Origin: Streptomyces sp. NBC_00654
GTDB taxonomy: Bacteria; Actinomycetota; Actinomycetes; Streptomycetales; Streptomycetaceae
Reading direction: 5' to 3'
Assembly: GCF_026341775.1 (NCBI RefSeq)
Contig: NZ_JAPEOB010000003.1
Location: forward strand, 992,001-1,056,000
Length of the DNA: 64,000 nucleotides
The translations under genes were made by a program, and so were the position numbers. The notes beneath the pieces are model-generated. The model searched no databases. It saw nothing but the letters and a program-made list of their open reading frames with translations, and was not told where the DNA came from. Below, piece after piece: positions 2,961-56,077 of this stretch (positions are counted from its first letter, which is position 1; every line of letters begins with the position of its first letter).

Positions 2961-3124
2961 GGTGCGTCGTACGGGGGTTCGCCGCCCTGCCGCGGGCTGC
3001 CCTGCCGAGAGCCGCCCTGCCGCGGGATGCCGGGCTGCGGGCTGCCGGGCCGGGGGTCGCCGTGCCGGTGTTCGCTGATCCACACCGATGATCCTATGTG
3101 CGGAATGTCGGAGTCGGCGGGCGG

Positions 3125-4396
3125 TCAGAGAACGGCGATGCCCAGGGGACGTTCACCTGCGTCGATCCGGACCGGTGCGGCGTACCCGTCCCCGTCGTCG
3201 TGGAGGTCGACGACGGTGATGCCGTTCCAGTAGCCGTCGCGGGTGAAGCCTCCCGTGACGTACGCCGTACGGCCGTCCCGCGACACCGCCACGTCCTCGT
3301 GCGGTCCCTCCAGCGGAACGACGCGCTCCTCGCCGTCCGGGGTGCGGACGGTGAGGGAGGGGGCCTCGTCATCGGCGGCGATCGGGCCGGTGCCGACGAC
3401 GAGGAGAGTGCCGTCGGGGGCGAGCGCCGCTCCGTGCTGGTGCGTGTCGGCGGTCATCCGCTCGATCCGCACCTTGCCGGTGCGCGGGTCCAGGACCGCG
3501 AGCCGCTCGCCCTCGAAGGGCAGGAGCAGCTTTCCGTCCGCCGGGCGTACGACGGCGTAGTGCGGCTTCAGCCAGGAGCCGAGACCGCCCTCGGTGCCGT
3601 ACGGGGCGACCTCCATCCGCCGCGGCTCCAGCGTCCCCGTGTCCACCGCCGTCACATCGAAGGAGTCGTGGCCGGTGGCGTACACCTCACGGCCGTCGGG
3701 CGAGACGTCCACGTCGAAGGGGCGGCGGCCGACGGGCACGGTGGCGGTCACCTCGCGGGTCGCGGTGTCGATGATCTCCAGCGTCCCGTCGCCGCCGGGG
3801 ACGTTGACGCCGACGTAGATGTGCCTGCCGTCGGGGGCGAGGGCGATGCCCATGCCGCCGCCCCGGTATTCGCCGGTCGTGGCCGGGCCGCTCTCCGTCT
3901 CGTACGGGACGAGGGCCGACCGGGTCCGGGTCGCGGTGTCGATGACGGCGACCCCTTCCGCGGTCGCCACCCAGGCCCGCCCGTCCTCACCGACGACGAG
4001 CCCGTACGGGGCGGTGCCGGCCTTCACCTCGGCGATCGGGCCACGGCCCCCGCCGGGCTCCGGGTCGACGAACGTCACGGTGTCGCTGCCGAAGTCGGCG
4101 ACGAGGAGGGTGCCGCGCGGGGTCCTGCCGGGTCCGTCCGGGGCGGGCGAGGCGGGCGAGGCAGGCGAGGCGGAGTCCTTCGCCGCACCGGACGAGCCGG
4201 CCGCCGAGCCGGGTGCCGTGTCGCTCGCCCTGTCGCTCGCCGAGTCGTCGGCCGTACCCGTCGCGTCCGTCGCGCATCCGGCGAGCACGGCGGCGGCCGC
4301 GAGCGCCGGTACCGTCCGGCGGACGCCCTTCCGCGCGCTCCTCCGGGCGGTCTTCCGCGCGCCCTCCCCGGCGGTCCGCGCGCTCTCCCCGGTCAC
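3125..4396 (-). CDS. YncE-like beta-propeller lipoprotein
   Basis: Predicted surface lipoprotein of 423 aa. A basic N-terminus is followed by a hydrophobic core and the lipobox LAGC, then an Ala/Ser/Gly/Pro linker and repeated blade units of the 40-residue YncE/YVTN type (for example LLVADFGSDTVTFVDP, VAVIDTATRTR, ALAPDGRHIYVGVNVPGG, DVSPDGREVYATGHD). These predict a seven-bladed propeller. Its ATG overlaps the stop of the upstream ankyrin gene by 4 bases (ATGA), so the two are probably translated together. No catalytic residues are recognisable; a binding or scaffold role is likely but unproven. Confidence 0.85.
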   Translation of the reverse strand: MTGESARTAGEGARKTARRSARKGVRRTVPALAAAAVLAGCATDATGTADDSASDRASDTAPGSAAGSSGAAKDSASPASPASPAPDGPGRTPRGTLLVADFGSDTVTFVDPEPGGGRGPIAEVKAGTAPYGLVVGEDGRAWVATAEGVAVIDTATRTRSALVPYETESGPATTGEYRGGGMGIALAPDGRHIYVGVNVPGGDGTLEIIDTATREVTATVPVGRRPFDVDVSPDGREVYATGHDSFDVTAVDTGTLEPRRMEVAPYGTEGGLGSWLKPHYAVVRPADGKLLLPFEGERLAVLDPRTGKVRIERMTADTHQHGAALAPDGTLLVVGTGPIAADDEAPSLTVRTPDGEERVVPLEGPHEDVAVSRDGRTAYVTGGFTRDGYWNGITVVDLHDDGDGYAAPVRIDAGERPLGIAVL

Positions 4397-32706: not shown

Positions 32707-33387
32707 TTACGGCTCGAACTTGTACCCCAGGCCCCGCACCGTCACCAGGTAGCGCGGCGCCCCCGGGTCGGGCTCGATCTTGGCGCGGAGGCGCTTCACA
32801 TGGACGTCGAGGGTCTTGGTGTCGCCCACATAGTCCGCGCCCCAGACCCGGTCGATCAGCTGCATACGGGTCAGCACGCGGCCCGCGTTGCGCAGCAGCA
32901 TCTCCAGGAGGTCGAACTCCTTGAGCGGAAGGTCGACCTTGCCGCCGGACACCGTGACGACGTGGCGGTCCACGTCCATCCGGACCGGGCCGGCCTCCAG
33001 AGCGGCCGGGGTGACCTCCTCCGGCTCACCGCGGCGGCGCAGCACCGCGCGGATGCGGGCGACCAGCTCCCGCGAGGAGAAGGGCTTGGTCACATAGTCG
33101 TCGGCTCCTATTTCCAGCCCGACGACCTTGTCGATCTCGCTGTCCTTGGCGGTGACCATGATCACCGGGACGTTGGAACGGCCGCGCAGCTGGCGGCAGA
33201 CCTCGGTGCCGGGCAGGCCCGGCAGCATCAGGTCGAGCAGGACGAGATCGGCGCCGTTGCGCTCGAACTCGTCGAGACCGTCGGGGCCGGTGGCCGCCAC
33301 GGCCACCTCGAAGCCTTCCTTGCGCAGCATGTAGGACAGGGCGTCGCTGAAGGATTCCTCATCCTCGACGACAAGCACTCGGGTCAC
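32707..33387 (-). CDS. phoP: PhoP (RegX3-type) response regulator
   Basis: 226-aa OmpR-family regulator (GTG start). Acidic pocket E8-D9 (VLVVEDEESF), phospho-acceptor D52 (LVLLDLMLPGLPGTEVC), conserved Lys in DDYVTKPFSSRELVARI. The winged helix is at the C-terminus (LLRNAGRVLTRMQLIDRVWG, KTLDVHVKRLRAKIEPDPG, VRGLGYKFEP). Activates the phosphate-starvation regulon by binding 11-bp PHO-box repeats; in Streptomyces it also restrains antibiotic production. Overlaps phoR by 4 bases (GTGA). Confidence 0.96.
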   Translation of the reverse strand: MTRVLVVEDEESFSDALSYMLRKEGFEVAVAATGPDGLDEFERNGADLVLLDLMLPGLPGTEVCRQLRGRSNVPVIMVTAKDSEIDKVVGLEIGADDYVTKPFSSRELVARIRAVLRRRGEPEEVTPAALEAGPVRMDVDRHVVTVSGGKVDLPLKEFDLLEMLLRNAGRVLTRMQLIDRVWGADYVGDTKTLDVHVKRLRAKIEPDPGAPRYLVTVRGLGYKFEP

Positions 33388-34646
33388 GGAAGAGCCTCCG
33401 GGGCGGGGAATGGTTCGAAGGTATCGGTCTCGTACGAGCCCTCGTCGTCACCGTTGACGATAAGCGGCCCGCCGGTGGTGCGCTCCCGTACGACGCCCGA
33501 TTCGGGCAGTCGCAGGGTGAAGGTGGAGCCCTGTCCCTCGGAGCTCCAGACGGTGACCTCCCCGCCGTGCGAGGCGGCCACGTGCTTGACGATGGCGAGG
33601 CCGAGACCGGTGCCACCGGTGGCCCGCGAGCGGGCCGGGTCGACGCGGTAGAACCGCTCGAAGACCCTCTCGCGGTCCTTCTCCGAGATGCCGATGCCCT
33701 GGTCGGTCACGGCTATCTCGATGAGGTCCCCGCCGGGCGCGGCGATGCGGCGGGCAGCGATGCCGACGCGGGTGCGGGCGGGGCTGTAGTTGACGGCGTT
33801 CTCGACGAGATTGCCGAGCGCCGCGGCGAGCTGGCCGCGGTTCCCCCATATGAAGAGATCCGCGGTGCCGCCCGAGGCCATGGTGATCTGCTTCGAGCCC
33901 GCCTGCTGGCGGCAGCGGTCGATGGCCTCGGCGACGAGCTCGTCCACCCGGACCGGTTCGGCGTCCTCCAGCGGGTCGTCGTTCTGCACCCGGGAGAGGT
34001 CGATCAGCTCCTGTACGAGGTTGGTCAGCCGGGTCGCCTCGATCTGCATCCGGCCGGCGAACCGCTCCACCGCCTCCGGGTCGTCGGAAGCGTCCATGAC
34101 GGCCTCGGAGAGCAGCGAGAGCGCACCGGTCGGCGTCTTGAGCTCATGGCTGACGTTGGCGACGAAGTCGCGCCGTACCGCCTCTATGCGGCGGGCCTCG
34201 GTGAGGTCCTCCACCAGGAGCAGCACCAGCCGGGAGCCCAGCGGGGCGACCCGGGCGGAGACGGCGAGCGCCTCGCCCCGGCCCGTACCGCGCCGGGGCA
34301 GATCCAGCTCGACCTGTCGTATCTCCCCGTCGCGCCGGGTGTCCCTGGCCATGTGGAGCATCGCCTCGACGGCCAGGCGTCCGCCCCTGACCAGGCCCAG
34401 CGCATACGCCGCGGAGCTGGCCTTGACCACGCTGTCGCTCTCGTCGAGCACGACGGCGGAAGAACTGAGCACAGAGAGGACCGTGTCCACTCCCGGGGGC
34501 AGTGCGGCGTTGCCGTCGGGCCGCAGGGACGTACGCGTGGGCCGTTTCAGGTCGCGCTCGCTCCAGCGGAACGCCAGCATGGCGATCACACCGGTACACA
34601 GCCCGGCGATCGCTGCAGCTGCGGCGACCGCCGCGTTCACGTCCAT
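33384..34646 (-). CDS. phoR: PhoR (SenX3-type) sensor kinase
   Basis: 420-aa sensor histidine kinase with one N-terminal membrane helix (AAAAIAGLCTGVIAMLAF), a PAS-like domain (SVLSSSAVVLDESDSVVKAS), a HisKA domain with H167 (FVANVSHELKTPTGALSLLS) and a HATPase domain (NLVENAVNYSP, TDQGIGISEKDRERVFERF, GGTGLGLAIVKHVAASHGG). Two-helix PhoRs have a periplasmic loop; this one, like SenX3, does not. It phosphorylates PhoP, with signal input probably through PhoU and Pst. Divergent from phoU across PHO-box repeats. Confidence 0.95.
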   Translation of the reverse strand: MDVNAAVAAAAAIAGLCTGVIAMLAFRWSERDLKRPTRTSLRPDGNAALPPGVDTVLSVLSSSAVVLDESDSVVKASSAAYALGLVRGGRLAVEAMLHMARDTRRDGEIRQVELDLPRRGTGRGEALAVSARVAPLGSRLVLLLVEDLTEARRIEAVRRDFVANVSHELKTPTGALSLLSEAVMDASDDPEAVERFAGRMQIEATRLTNLVQELIDLSRVQNDDPLEDAEPVRVDELVAEAIDRCRQQAGSKQITMASGGTADLFIWGNRGQLAAALGNLVENAVNYSPARTRVGIAARRIAAPGGDLIEIAVTDQGIGISEKDRERVFERFYRVDPARSRATGGTGLGLAIVKHVAASHGGEVTVWSSEGQGSTFTLRLPESGVVRERTTGGPLIVNGDDEGSYETDTFEPFPAPEALP

Positions 34647-34719
34647 GCTTCAAGGTTATGCGGGTGCGCCGACACTCTCCCAGCCATCCGGGTGCCATCT
34701 CGAACACTCGTCGCCCAGA

Positions 34720-34752
34720 GTTCACCGAGGAGCAAGTACCGGTTCACTTCGG
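34720..34752 (+). promoter_or_regulatory. PHO-box direct repeats between phoR and phoU
   Basis: Three consecutive 11-base units: gttcaccgagg, agcaagtaccg, gttcacttcgg. The outer two match the Streptomyces PHO-box unit gttcacc; the middle one is weak. The exact 22-base spacing of the good units fits PhoP dimers in tandem. It implies autoregulation of phoRP and control of phoU. Confidence 0.8.
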
Positions 34753-34848
34753 GGGCCGGATCCGGACGCGTTGCGCACGCACCGTGGGAGCGTGGGGGAC
34801 GGCCCAGAGCCCGGCCCCAGGACGGTCCAAGAAACTGGAGAGACTTCA

Positions 34849-35526
34849 ATGCGTGACGCTTACCACGAGGAACTCGATTCCATCGGCGAAGGCCTGGTCG
34901 AGATGGCCCGGCTCGTCGGGTCGGCCATCGGGCGGGCCACCACGTCCATGCTCGACGCCGACCTCAAGCTCGCGGAGAGCGTGATCGCCGCCGACCAGAA
35001 GGTCGACGACCTCCAGCACGACCTGGAGGCACGTGCCATCGCCCTGCTCGCCCGCCAGCAGCCCGTGGCCACGGATCTGCGGATCGTGGTCACCTCGCTG
35101 CGGATGAGCGCGGACCTGGAGCGCTCGGGCGACCTCGCCCAGCATGTCGCCAAGCTGGCCCGGCTGCGCTTCCCGCAGTCCGCGGTACCGCACGACCTGC
35201 ACGCCACGATCCTGGAGATGGGCCAGCTCGCACAGCGGCTGATGGCCAAGGCCGCCGAGGTCATCATCACCAAGGACGTCGACCTGGCGCTCCAGCTGGA
35301 GCAGGACGACGACGAGATGGACCTGCTGCACCGCACCCTGTTCCAGCACCTGATGGACGACCGCTGGAAGCACGGCATCGAGACGGCCGTCGACGTGACC
35401 CTGCTCGGCCGCTACTACGAGCGCTTCGCCGACCACGCGGTGTCGGTCGCCAAGCGCGTCGTCTACCTGGTGACGGGCGAGCACGCGGACGAGATCCAGG
35501 CGGCGGCCCCGGTGGACGGCGTGTAG
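34849..35526 (+). CDS. phoU: PhoU phosphate-signalling protein
   Basis: 225-aa all-helical protein made of two PhoU three-helix units. Repeated acidic metal-binding segments are LARQQPVATDLRIVVTSLRM with DLERSGDLAQHVAKLA, and LLGRYYERFADHAVSVAKRV. It links the Pst importer to PhoR and keeps PhoP inactive when phosphate is plentiful. Start MRDAYHEELDSIGEGLVEM after agactt; the ribosome site is a modest ggag (34837-34840). No pst genes are in this window. Confidence 0.94.
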   Translation: MRDAYHEELDSIGEGLVEMARLVGSAIGRATTSMLDADLKLAESVIAADQKVDDLQHDLEARAIALLARQQPVATDLRIVVTSLRMSADLERSGDLAQHVAKLARLRFPQSAVPHDLHATILEMGQLAQRLMAKAAEVIITKDVDLALQLEQDDDEMDLLHRTLFQHLMDDRWKHGIETAVDVTLLGRYYERFADHAVSVAKRVVYLVTGEHADEIQAAAPVDGV

Positions 35527-35838
35527 GACCTGCGACAGGTGTACGGGAGGGGAGGCGACGGGGTACGGCGGCAGCCGCCCGGCGGGGTGCGGCAGGAGCG
35601 CGCGGCGCGGAGTACCGGGCGCGTACGGCGGGTCGGGGGTAAGCGGGGCGCCTCCGGCGCGCCGTGGTCGCACGTTTGTTCCTGCGCGTATGCGCCGTTG
35701 ATGCGCCTGCCGGGGTGGGCATGCAATGGGGTGGGGGCGGCACGCCATGCCGTACGTCCCCGGCGTGCGCACCTGGCGTACGTCCCCGGCGGCGCTCCTG
35801 GCCGTGTGCCGCCCAGCCGTACGCCCTGAGGAGGAACC
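35527..35838. other. Gap upstream of the Cys-rich small gene
   Basis: 312 bases with no gene of normal codon use. It contains two copies of gcgtacgtccccggcg-like sequence near 35748-35793 (one slightly different) and a short AT-richer patch cacgtttgttcctgcg near 35671. A promoter for the small gene at 35839 is expected here but not identifiable. Confidence 0.35.
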
Positions 35839-35988
35839 ATGGCCGATTCCCCCACGACCGAACCCCAGCAGGAGACACCGACCGATGTGGTGCGCCTGAC
35901 CGTGCTCGGCGCCTGCGGCTGCGGCTCGGGCTGCGGGTGCGGCTGCCAGTCCGGCGGCCCGTGCCAGTGCGGCGGCTGCTCCGGCTGA
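35839..35988 (+). CDS. 49-aa cysteine-rich mini-protein
   Basis: ATG at 35839 with a strong gaggaggaa ribosome site encodes MADSPTTEPQQETPTDVVRL followed by a C-terminal half with eight Cys in 23 residues (pattern CGC, C, CGC, C, CQC, C, rich in Gly). No signal peptide. The charged, Cys-free N-terminus and Cys/Gly-rich C-terminus could be a metallothionein-like metal buffer or, less likely, a leader-core peptide precursor. A strong terminator follows directly, so it is a self-contained unit beside phoU. Length would put it below many gene-calling cut-offs. I know no named family for it. Confidence 0.75.
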   Translation: MADSPTTEPQQETPTDVVRLTVLGACGCGSGCGCGCQSGGPCQCGGCSG

Positions 35989-36003
35989 GCCCGCGCGTCA
36001 ACG

Positions 36004-36040
36004 GGTGCCGCGCGGCGGAACTCTTCCGCCGCGCGGCACC
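36004..36040. terminator. Terminator after the Cys-rich gene
   Basis: Perfect 17-base arms (ggtgccgcgcggcggaa and ttccgccgcgcggcacc) around ctc. Lies between the small gene and the convergent MFS gene. Confidence 0.85.
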
Positions 36041-36075
36041 GCCGCGCGTACGGGGGGACGGTTCAGGGACCGTCC

Positions 36076-37470
36076 TCAGCCCGCCTGCCCGGCCGCCAGA
36101 TCCTTGGCCGTTCCCCCGGCGGGCGCGGCCTCGGCATCCTTACCCCCCGCAGGCACCGGACCCGCAGGCACCGAACCGGCGACCACCACTCCTGCGGGCG
36201 CGGTGCCGGCCGAAGGCTCCCCGGCCGGGACCGGCGCCGGGGGAACGGCGCCCGCCGCCCCCGGAAGGTTCCGCATCAGCAGCCAGTAGCCGAACGCGGC
36301 CACCGTGCCCAGCACCGCGCAGGTTCCCCACAGCCAGGCGGCGCCGTAGCGGTCGATCACGACGCCCGACATCAGTGGGGCGATGAGGGCGGCCACCGCC
36401 CACGACATCGTGTACATGCCCTGGTAGCGGCCGCGCCCCTGAGCCGGTGACAGCTGCACGATCAGGCCGGTCTGGATCGGGGCGTTGACGATTTCGGCGA
36501 GGGTCCAGACGCACACCGTCAGCGCGTACACCCCGACCGACCCGGCGAAGGCGGTCAGCCCGAATCCGTACCCCGCCAGCAGCGCGGAGATGATCAGCAG
36601 GCGGCGCGGGTCGCGGTGCTCGATGAAGCGGGTGACGGGGATCTGGAGCACGACGATCAGCACACCGTTGACGGCGATGGCCGTACCGAAGTCGGAGCTG
36701 GAGAGCCCGTCCGCACCCATCGCCACGGGCAGGCCCACGTACCCCTGCTGGAAGATCAGCGAGACGAGGAACGACAGCCCGACGACACCCATGAACCGCC
36801 CGTCGCGCAGCACGGTCCCGATCCGCACCCCGTCGTCCTTCCCCGGCTTCGCCCCGCCGGCCGCCGGTGCCTGCTCCGGCCGGGATTCCGGCACCTTCAG
36901 GAACACCACGACGGCGCAGAACAGGGTCATCGCGGCCTCGCCGATGAAGCCCGCGAGGTAGCTGTACTCCGCGATGAAGCCGGCCCCGGCGGAGGAGACC
37001 GCGAAGCCGAGGTTGATGGCCCAGTAGTTGAGCGAGAAGGCCCGCACCCGGTCCTCGGGCCGGACGATGTCGGCCATCATCGCCTGCACGGCGGGGCGCG
37101 AGGCGTTGCTCGCCATGCCGACCACGAACGCGACGGCGGCGATCGCGAACGGGTGCTCCATGAATCCGAGCACCGCCACGGACACCGCGGTGGAGGTCTG
37201 GGCGATCAGCATGGTGGGCCGCCGCCCGAGCCGGTCCGTCATCACTCCGGCGCCGAGCGAGGAGACGACCCCGCCGAGCCCGTGCAGCGCGGCGACAAGC
37301 CCGGCGTACGAGGCCGAGTAGCCGCGGTCCATCGTCAGATAGAGCGCCATGAACGTGGCGACGAACGCCCCGAGCCGGTTGACCAGGGTGCTGGTCCACA
37401 GCCACCAGAACTCCCTGGGGAGCCCGGACACGGTCTCGTGTGCGGCTTTTCTGAGACCGGCGACAGACAT
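36076..37470 (-). CDS. MFS drug/metabolite exporter
   Basis: 464-aa, 12-helix major facilitator with the motif GAGVMTDRLGRRPTMLIAQT after helix 2 and the antiporter-like motif in GLVAALHGLGGVVSSLG. Related to the MdtH/YceE proton-driven multidrug group. The C-terminal 60 residues are an Ala/Pro/Gly tail with repeated PAG units, probably disordered in the cytoplasm. ATG at 37470 is chosen because the extra upstream codons are not protein-like. Substrate unknown; no regulator adjacent. Confidence 0.88.
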   Translation of the reverse strand: MSVAGLRKAAHETVSGLPREFWWLWTSTLVNRLGAFVATFMALYLTMDRGYSASYAGLVAALHGLGGVVSSLGAGVMTDRLGRRPTMLIAQTSTAVSVAVLGFMEHPFAIAAVAFVVGMASNASRPAVQAMMADIVRPEDRVRAFSLNYWAINLGFAVSSAGAGFIAEYSYLAGFIGEAAMTLFCAVVVFLKVPESRPEQAPAAGGAKPGKDDGVRIGTVLRDGRFMGVVGLSFLVSLIFQQGYVGLPVAMGADGLSSSDFGTAIAVNGVLIVVLQIPVTRFIEHRDPRRLLIISALLAGYGFGLTAFAGSVGVYALTVCVWTLAEIVNAPIQTGLIVQLSPAQGRGRYQGMYTMSWAVAALIAPLMSGVVIDRYGAAWLWGTCAVLGTVAAFGYWLLMRNLPGAAGAVPPAPVPAGEPSAGTAPAGVVVAGSVPAGPVPAGGKDAEAAPAGGTAKDLAAGQAG

Positions 37471-37723
37471 GCGGGTACCCCCCCCGGGGACGTACGGAAC
37501 AGGGGCCGCCGGTAAGAGTCCCGGAAGCAATCCGAACATTACGAACAGCGGGTTCCCGGTCGCTACTCGATTGACGCCGACCGTCAAACGTCACACCGCC
37601 CGGCCGCCACGTCGGCCACGGCCACCCGGCCCGGCGCCCCGCCCCGCCACCCCGGTCGGCGTCCGTTGTCCGCCCTGTGGCCGGGCGCGCGGAGGCTGAG
37701 GGGGTTCGATTACGCTCGGGCTC

Positions 37724-55966: not shown

Positions 55967-56077
55967 CGAATCCCCTTTTCCGCTTCCGGAACCCCTGCCC
56001 CCCGCTTGACCACCATTCTAGTTTTGCGTAATGCTTACACAGTAACGCGTATGACATACACAGAAGGGGGACCGGCC
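55967..56077. promoter_or_regulatory. Divergent TetR / exporter control region
   Basis: Conspicuously AT-rich for this genome. The segment gcgtaatgcttacacagtaa (56026-56045) continues to cgc, giving an imperfect inverted repeat with gcgt/acgc ends. It is the best operator candidate for the TetR protein. Promoter hexamers are not clear. Confidence 0.4.

Follow-up and report, generated by a model that had tools for sequence, protein, structure and literature searches.

A cysteine-rich gene beside phoU in Streptomyces sp. NBC_00654 is almost certainly mtpA and probably encodes a thiolate metal buffer

The gene mtpA, which lies within the central phosphate-control locus of Streptomyces, has been in print under this name since 2006, the founding study being cited as Ghorbel 2006. 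A table in PMC2267785 gives the "Metallothionein protein (mtpA)" as SCO4227, between SCO4226 and phoU (SCO4228), and a passage in PMC11019849 places mtpA immediately 3' of phoU and divergent from phoRP. The latter study used promoter-gfp fusions, RNA-seq and a deletion of the mtpA-phoU-phoRP locus in strain WAC07094, and describes for mtpA both a promoter of its own and read-through from phoU. In that strain the mtpA promoter-gfp signal rose with Mg and did not answer to Mn or Zn, and the saquayamycin phenotypes did not need mtpA. The literature reports more mtpA RNA in phosphate limitation, and accounts of PhoP control conflict, one having it "independently of PhoP" whereas PMC4991794 describes SCO4226 and SCO4227 as regulated by the two-component system PhoRP. 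In PMC6283541, PMC7244524, PMC8981147 and PMC4433243, mtpA appears only in the reference lists. Across the mtpA passages of the papers cited here there is no report of metal binding by MtpA.

Described metallothioneins provide further points of comparison. The SmtA/BmtA proteins (the prokaryotic metallothionein family of Pfam) are, like MtpA, small, Cys-rich and intracellular, with His ligands beside Cys and a Cys spacing unlike that of MtpA. MymT, the copper metallothionein of mycobacteria, is likewise a small actinobacterial Cys-rich protein and seems to differ from MtpA in spacing and context. In fungi, the Neurospora-type copper thioneins are short, Gly/Ser-rich proteins with CxC motifs and no aromatic residues.

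The gene studied here was singled out in a sequence-only reading of the window (the whole stretch of 64,000 nucleotides that was analysed), which described a 49-codon gene beside phoU and offered it as a candidate for something undescribed. It occupies positions 35839 to 35988 of the forward strand, stop codon included, and is supported by its ORF, its homologues and coding selection; from an ATG start it encodes the 49-residue protein MADSPTTEPQQETPTDVVRLTVLGACGCGSGCGCGCQSGGPCQCGGCSG. A ribosome-binding site, GAGGAG (35828 to 35833, forward strand), stands ahead of the ATG, as the same reading had noted. Following an acidic N-terminus, a core with the pattern CxCxxxCxCxCxxxxxCxCxxC (35914 to 35979, forward strand; residues 26-47) holds the eight Cys that had been counted, although over 22 residues rather than 23. 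The protein is short and Gly-rich, has several CxC motifs, and lacks both His and aromatic residues. A six-frame scan of the window found a second Cys-dense stretch (7 Cys in 25 residues) on the minus strand near 56058, so Cys density alone is not decisive for calling mtpA a gene.

The surroundings of the gene correspond to those described for mtpA. It lies directly 3' of phoU (34849 to 35526, forward strand; PhoU domains, PF01895), on the same strand, and divergent from the genes for the sensor kinase PhoR (33384 to 34646) and the response regulator PhoP (32707 to 33387), both assigned by domain search on the reverse strand; its product is small with a conserved CxC-rich core, in line with the small, predicted metal-binding protein of SCO4227. 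On the other side, a gene for an MFS transporter (36076 to 37515, reverse strand, predicted start; domain search) converges on it, and beyond that lies a histidine-phosphatase-superfamily gene that is phosphoglycerate-mutase-like by eye. Here the order differs from S. coelicolor, where SCO4226 rather than an MFS gene follows SCO4227; a search of the own genome for a SCO4226-type protein (PF14026) gave no match, and the control likewise matched nowhere. We infer orthology with SCO4227 from the order of the genes and the widespread occurrence of this one in the family and, the likeness being one of place and type, we regard it as almost certainly the local copy of mtpA. The idea of an undescribed gene is therefore rejected, since a gene of this position and type is in print (PMC2267785, PMC11019849). 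What is added here to the cited mtpA passages is a promoter element, a copy in a metal island and relatives linked to cydAB.

Linkage to phoU was assessed in 80 named mtpA loci, which represent 80 of 99 confirmed relatives, S. coelicolor not being among them. In 72 of these, phoU was directly upstream on the same strand, with 105-428 bp between the end of the phoU match and the start of the MtpA match. The eight exceptions comprised seven loci without phoU in the fetched DNA (one of them at a contig start) and one with phoU on the opposite strand. Three loci with mtpA-family copies and no phoU in the fetched DNA (L055, L074 and L085; the records of two carry the name Kitasatospora) come from genomes that each have a second match.

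A protein search retrieved 362 MtpA homologues at E up to 1; among the best 120 of these, all those with a species name were from Streptomyces. Most named homologues are called "hypothetical", and several bear the name "Metallothionein" in UniRef. In an alignment of 23 sequences (the window's own and 22 homologues) the same seven Cys were invariant, and the profile built from it found a match in 284 of the 297 genomes searched in the window's own family and none in the remaining 13. When genomes were sampled across the class, 43 of 296 gave a match, 27 from the own family and 16 from outside, the latter made up of 15 in one family (f17) and one in another (f19). The spacing of the first seven Cys, CxCxxxCxCxCxxxxxCxC, was found in 125/125 distinct phoU-linked MtpA sequences, which had been collected with a looser Cys pattern. 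Their Cys totals were 8 (60 sequences), 7 (36) or 9 (29), and His occurred after the core start in 8 of the 125. The seven-Cys part is hence the constant unit of the family, and the last one or two Cys are variable or shifted by one residue.

Substitution rates were compared between the window sequence and 56 ungapped relatives with a Met start and identity at 35 or more of the 49 residues; once pairs whose dS was zero or undefined had been removed, 55 comparisons remained for the whole gene, 54 for the N-terminus and 52 for the core. For the core (residues 25-49) the median dN was 0.018 and the median dS 0.188, with a median ratio of 0.14, as against a median dN/dS of 0.79 for residues 1-24. 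Selection thus keeps the Cys core, which is the part of MtpA under purifying selection. Together with the matches in 284 of 297 family genomes, the core ratio leads us to reject a chance ORF: mtpA is a real, strongly conserved coding gene, and the 49-codon gene of the sequence-only reading is borne out. That reading had let its proposal depend on relatives keeping the Cys pattern at this locus, and they do keep it.

Searches of family and structure collections gave no match for MtpA. No Pfam family was matched at E up to 10 (few matches above about 0.1 survive the HMMER filters), nor was any NCBIfam model or PHROGs entry, and neither the protein, its core nor the profile matched a PDB sequence. 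Unlike SmtA/BmtA, then, MtpA has no Pfam match and no His, and so far as compared, the sequence-only reading was correct in finding no fit with a classic bacterial metallothionein. With the fungal copper thioneins it would share a working principle rather than a sequence match in PDB, and this likeness is likely convergent. Annotation of the "hypothetical" homologues would gain from a profile based on this core.

Another possibility raised from the sequence was a ribosomally made precursor peptide, giving a lanthipeptide or another thiol-derived product. The short length of MtpA would suit such a role, as would its acidic, variable N-terminus, a possible leader ahead of a fixed C-terminal core. 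However, none of the five neighbours with a domain assignment (phoP, phoR, phoU, the MFS transporter and the histidine-phosphatase-superfamily enzyme) encodes a modification enzyme, and the conserved neighbour is phoU. The core, moreover, has 8 Cys but just 3 Ser and lacks Thr, and presence in nearly all genomes of the family is unlike the distribution of natural-product clusters. A precursor peptide was rejected on account of these neighbours and the phoU context, and we consider it highly improbable.

Between phoU and mtpA we found a conserved element, TGCGCCGTTGATGCGCC (35691 to 35707, forward strand), in which TGCGCC is repeated at 11 bp. Its conserved second half, GGGCATGCAATGGGG (35717 to 35731, forward strand), is a candidate −10 region, and TTGATG within the element is possibly the −35 box. 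The 16-mer GCGCCGTTGATGCGCC was present exactly in 87 of 127 distinct phoU-mtpA intervals, with one mismatch in 21 more and in weaker form in 19; these counts are unselected by the promoter pattern, and the best match in 635 base-shuffled intervals had 13 of the 16 bases. Across 61 genomes of the genus, 38 carried the exact 16-mer (once in 35 and twice in 3, making 41 sites) and 23 did not, whereas a control pattern had 3 sites in the same table. Thirty of the 41 listed sites were fetched, and 27 of them were followed by an mtpA core within 450 bases; the sites without one were L206, L211 and L216, and the own-genome one was viewed in L176. A sequence logo was drawn from 96 sequences picked by a pattern lying within the element, and free evidence therefore comes only from positions beyond this pattern; the second half, which had no part in the selection, was conserved as well. 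These data point to a putative promoter element that is conserved and nearly mtpA-specific.

We also considered a wider regulon for the 17-mer. In the own genome, 13 sites with up to two mismatches were found against 17 for a backward control, and a wider regulon is rejected for now. One site with a single mismatch (C1:1806244-1806260, in L176) lies upstream of a gene that is ferritin-like by eye, with a tyrosinase-like gene farther on; this is a single case and may be chance.

The GTTCAYY motif of PHO boxes is described in PMC6283541. Two such units, 22 bp apart and PHO-box-like, lie on the forward strand in the phoR-phoU gap (34720 to 34752, units at 34720 and 34742), and within 34600-36050 units of the GTTCACC type were found only before phoU. 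Between phoU and mtpA the window has no GTTCAYY unit on either strand, and we therefore reject a direct action of PhoP on the mtpA promoter of the window; on the coding strand the motif occurred in 8 of the 127 distinct phoU-mtpA intervals. The TGCGCC element itself differs from the GTTCACC unit of PhoP. An 11-bp phasing of repeats is typical of winged-helix response regulators. An mtpA promoter that is not directly bound by PhoP, supplemented by read-through from phoU, would fit both the conserved element and the missing PhoP unit.

A consensus scan of 35500-36100 found no sigma-70-type promoter and no T-run terminator. Downstream of the stop codon, a 17-bp hairpin (36004 to 36040) lies between the two convergent genes as a putative terminator without a T-run. 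The 65 bases from 35986 to 36050 fold at −49.4 kcal/mol (z −5.4; none of 200 shuffles as stable). From its location, the hairpin may serve both genes; the "own long terminator" described earlier therefore stands as a strong hairpin 3' of the stop, though it lacks a T-run and is possibly shared. A single sub-threshold match of the hairpin to a microRNA family in Rfam was taken as chance.

Of the three roles offered by the sequence-only reading (metal buffer, redox peptide and precursor peptide), a metal buffer is best supported. MtpA is most likely a cytoplasmic thiolate buffer for Zn(II)/Cu(I) made during phosphate limitation, and the account as a whole, in which this buffer is the product of the mtpA gene of the phoU-phoRP locus, seems to us probable. 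It is favoured by the absence of His and aromatic residues, the CxC motifs, the selection on the core, the linkage to phoU and a copy in a metal island of S. mashuensis (see below); it is weakened by the response of the promoter to Mg but to neither Zn nor Mn, and by the conflicting accounts of PhoP. In the cytoplasm, seven to nine thiolates would enclose soft metal ions, Zn(II) and/or Cu(I), as a small cluster, with the acidic N-terminus as a loose tail; transcription would start from the TGCGCC-repeat promoter, with some read-through from phoU. MtpA would then buffer metals once phosphate and polyphosphate, which otherwise bind them, are depleted. Metal-thiolate binding itself is very likely, while the role in phosphate depletion is proposed tentatively, at somewhat short of an even chance. 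Why a metal-thiolate peptide should be tied to phosphate limitation is the question this raises, and the promoter element and the metal-island copy provide handles on it.

The genome of S. mashuensis, in addition to its phoU-linked mtpA, carries a second mtpA-family copy of 34 amino acids (L063, 3462-3566). This copy lies 3' of genes for an ABC ATPase, two ABC-3 permeases and a FUR-family regulator, with a CobW GTPase gene and an Nramp gene beyond it on the opposite strand, in what appears to be a metal-handling island (L063:24-6897). Zinc handling commonly involves ABC-3 permeases, FUR-type repressors and CobW proteins. The island with the second copy was found in one genome only, with remnants in one more: a near relative labelled Streptosporangium nondiastaticum (L067) retains the remnant of one permease and, by eye, a FUR gene. 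These observations bear on a narrower form of the metal-buffer reading, overlapping with it, in which MtpA would be a dedicated Cu(I) thionein, like the short Gly-rich ones of fungi, rather than a zinc protein. Such a specialization agrees with a short, Gly-rich protein that has only Cys as ligands and no His, but the company of the S. mashuensis copy (ABC-3, FUR-family, CobW) looks like zinc handling, and we regard an exclusive copper role as possible yet doubtful. By eye, the same island also holds a His-rich ORF (2995-3300, reverse strand).

Closely spaced CxC motifs accompanied by Gly are found more typically in metal clusters than in dithiol redox motifs. Outside the window's family, short MtpA relatives of family f17 (loci L143-L157) lie downstream of the cytochrome bd genes cydA/cydB in 10 of 15 loci, a setting that favours another reading, in which the cysteines of MtpA would form a thiol reserve or an oxidative-stress sensor tied to PhoU. 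A review (PMC7866108) suggests that PhoU and the mtpA metalloprotein take part in oxidative-stress sensing or resistance. However, in wild-type S. coelicolor the RNA of SCO4227 fell to 0.14-fold under oxidative stress (PMC4991794), which weakens the redox reading and leaves it, in our estimate, improbable.

Returning to the metal buffer, a broader version would have MtpA replace the metal buffering of phosphate and polyphosphate, a regulator separate from PhoP read TGCGCC-N5-TGCGCC, and the family be recruited twice more, in the metal island and beside cytochrome bd. This version is speculative and on balance unlikely; if true, MtpA would connect phosphate, zinc and respiration in actinobacteria as a common buffer. 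At E 1e-8, a search of about 4 kb around each of the 16 loci from other families found no phoU relative. Thirteen of these 16 loci have in common one small uncharacterised gene close by, and Pfam confirmed both CydA and CydB for L144 and CydA for L154. A SecA-type gene was close by in 11 of the f17 loci.
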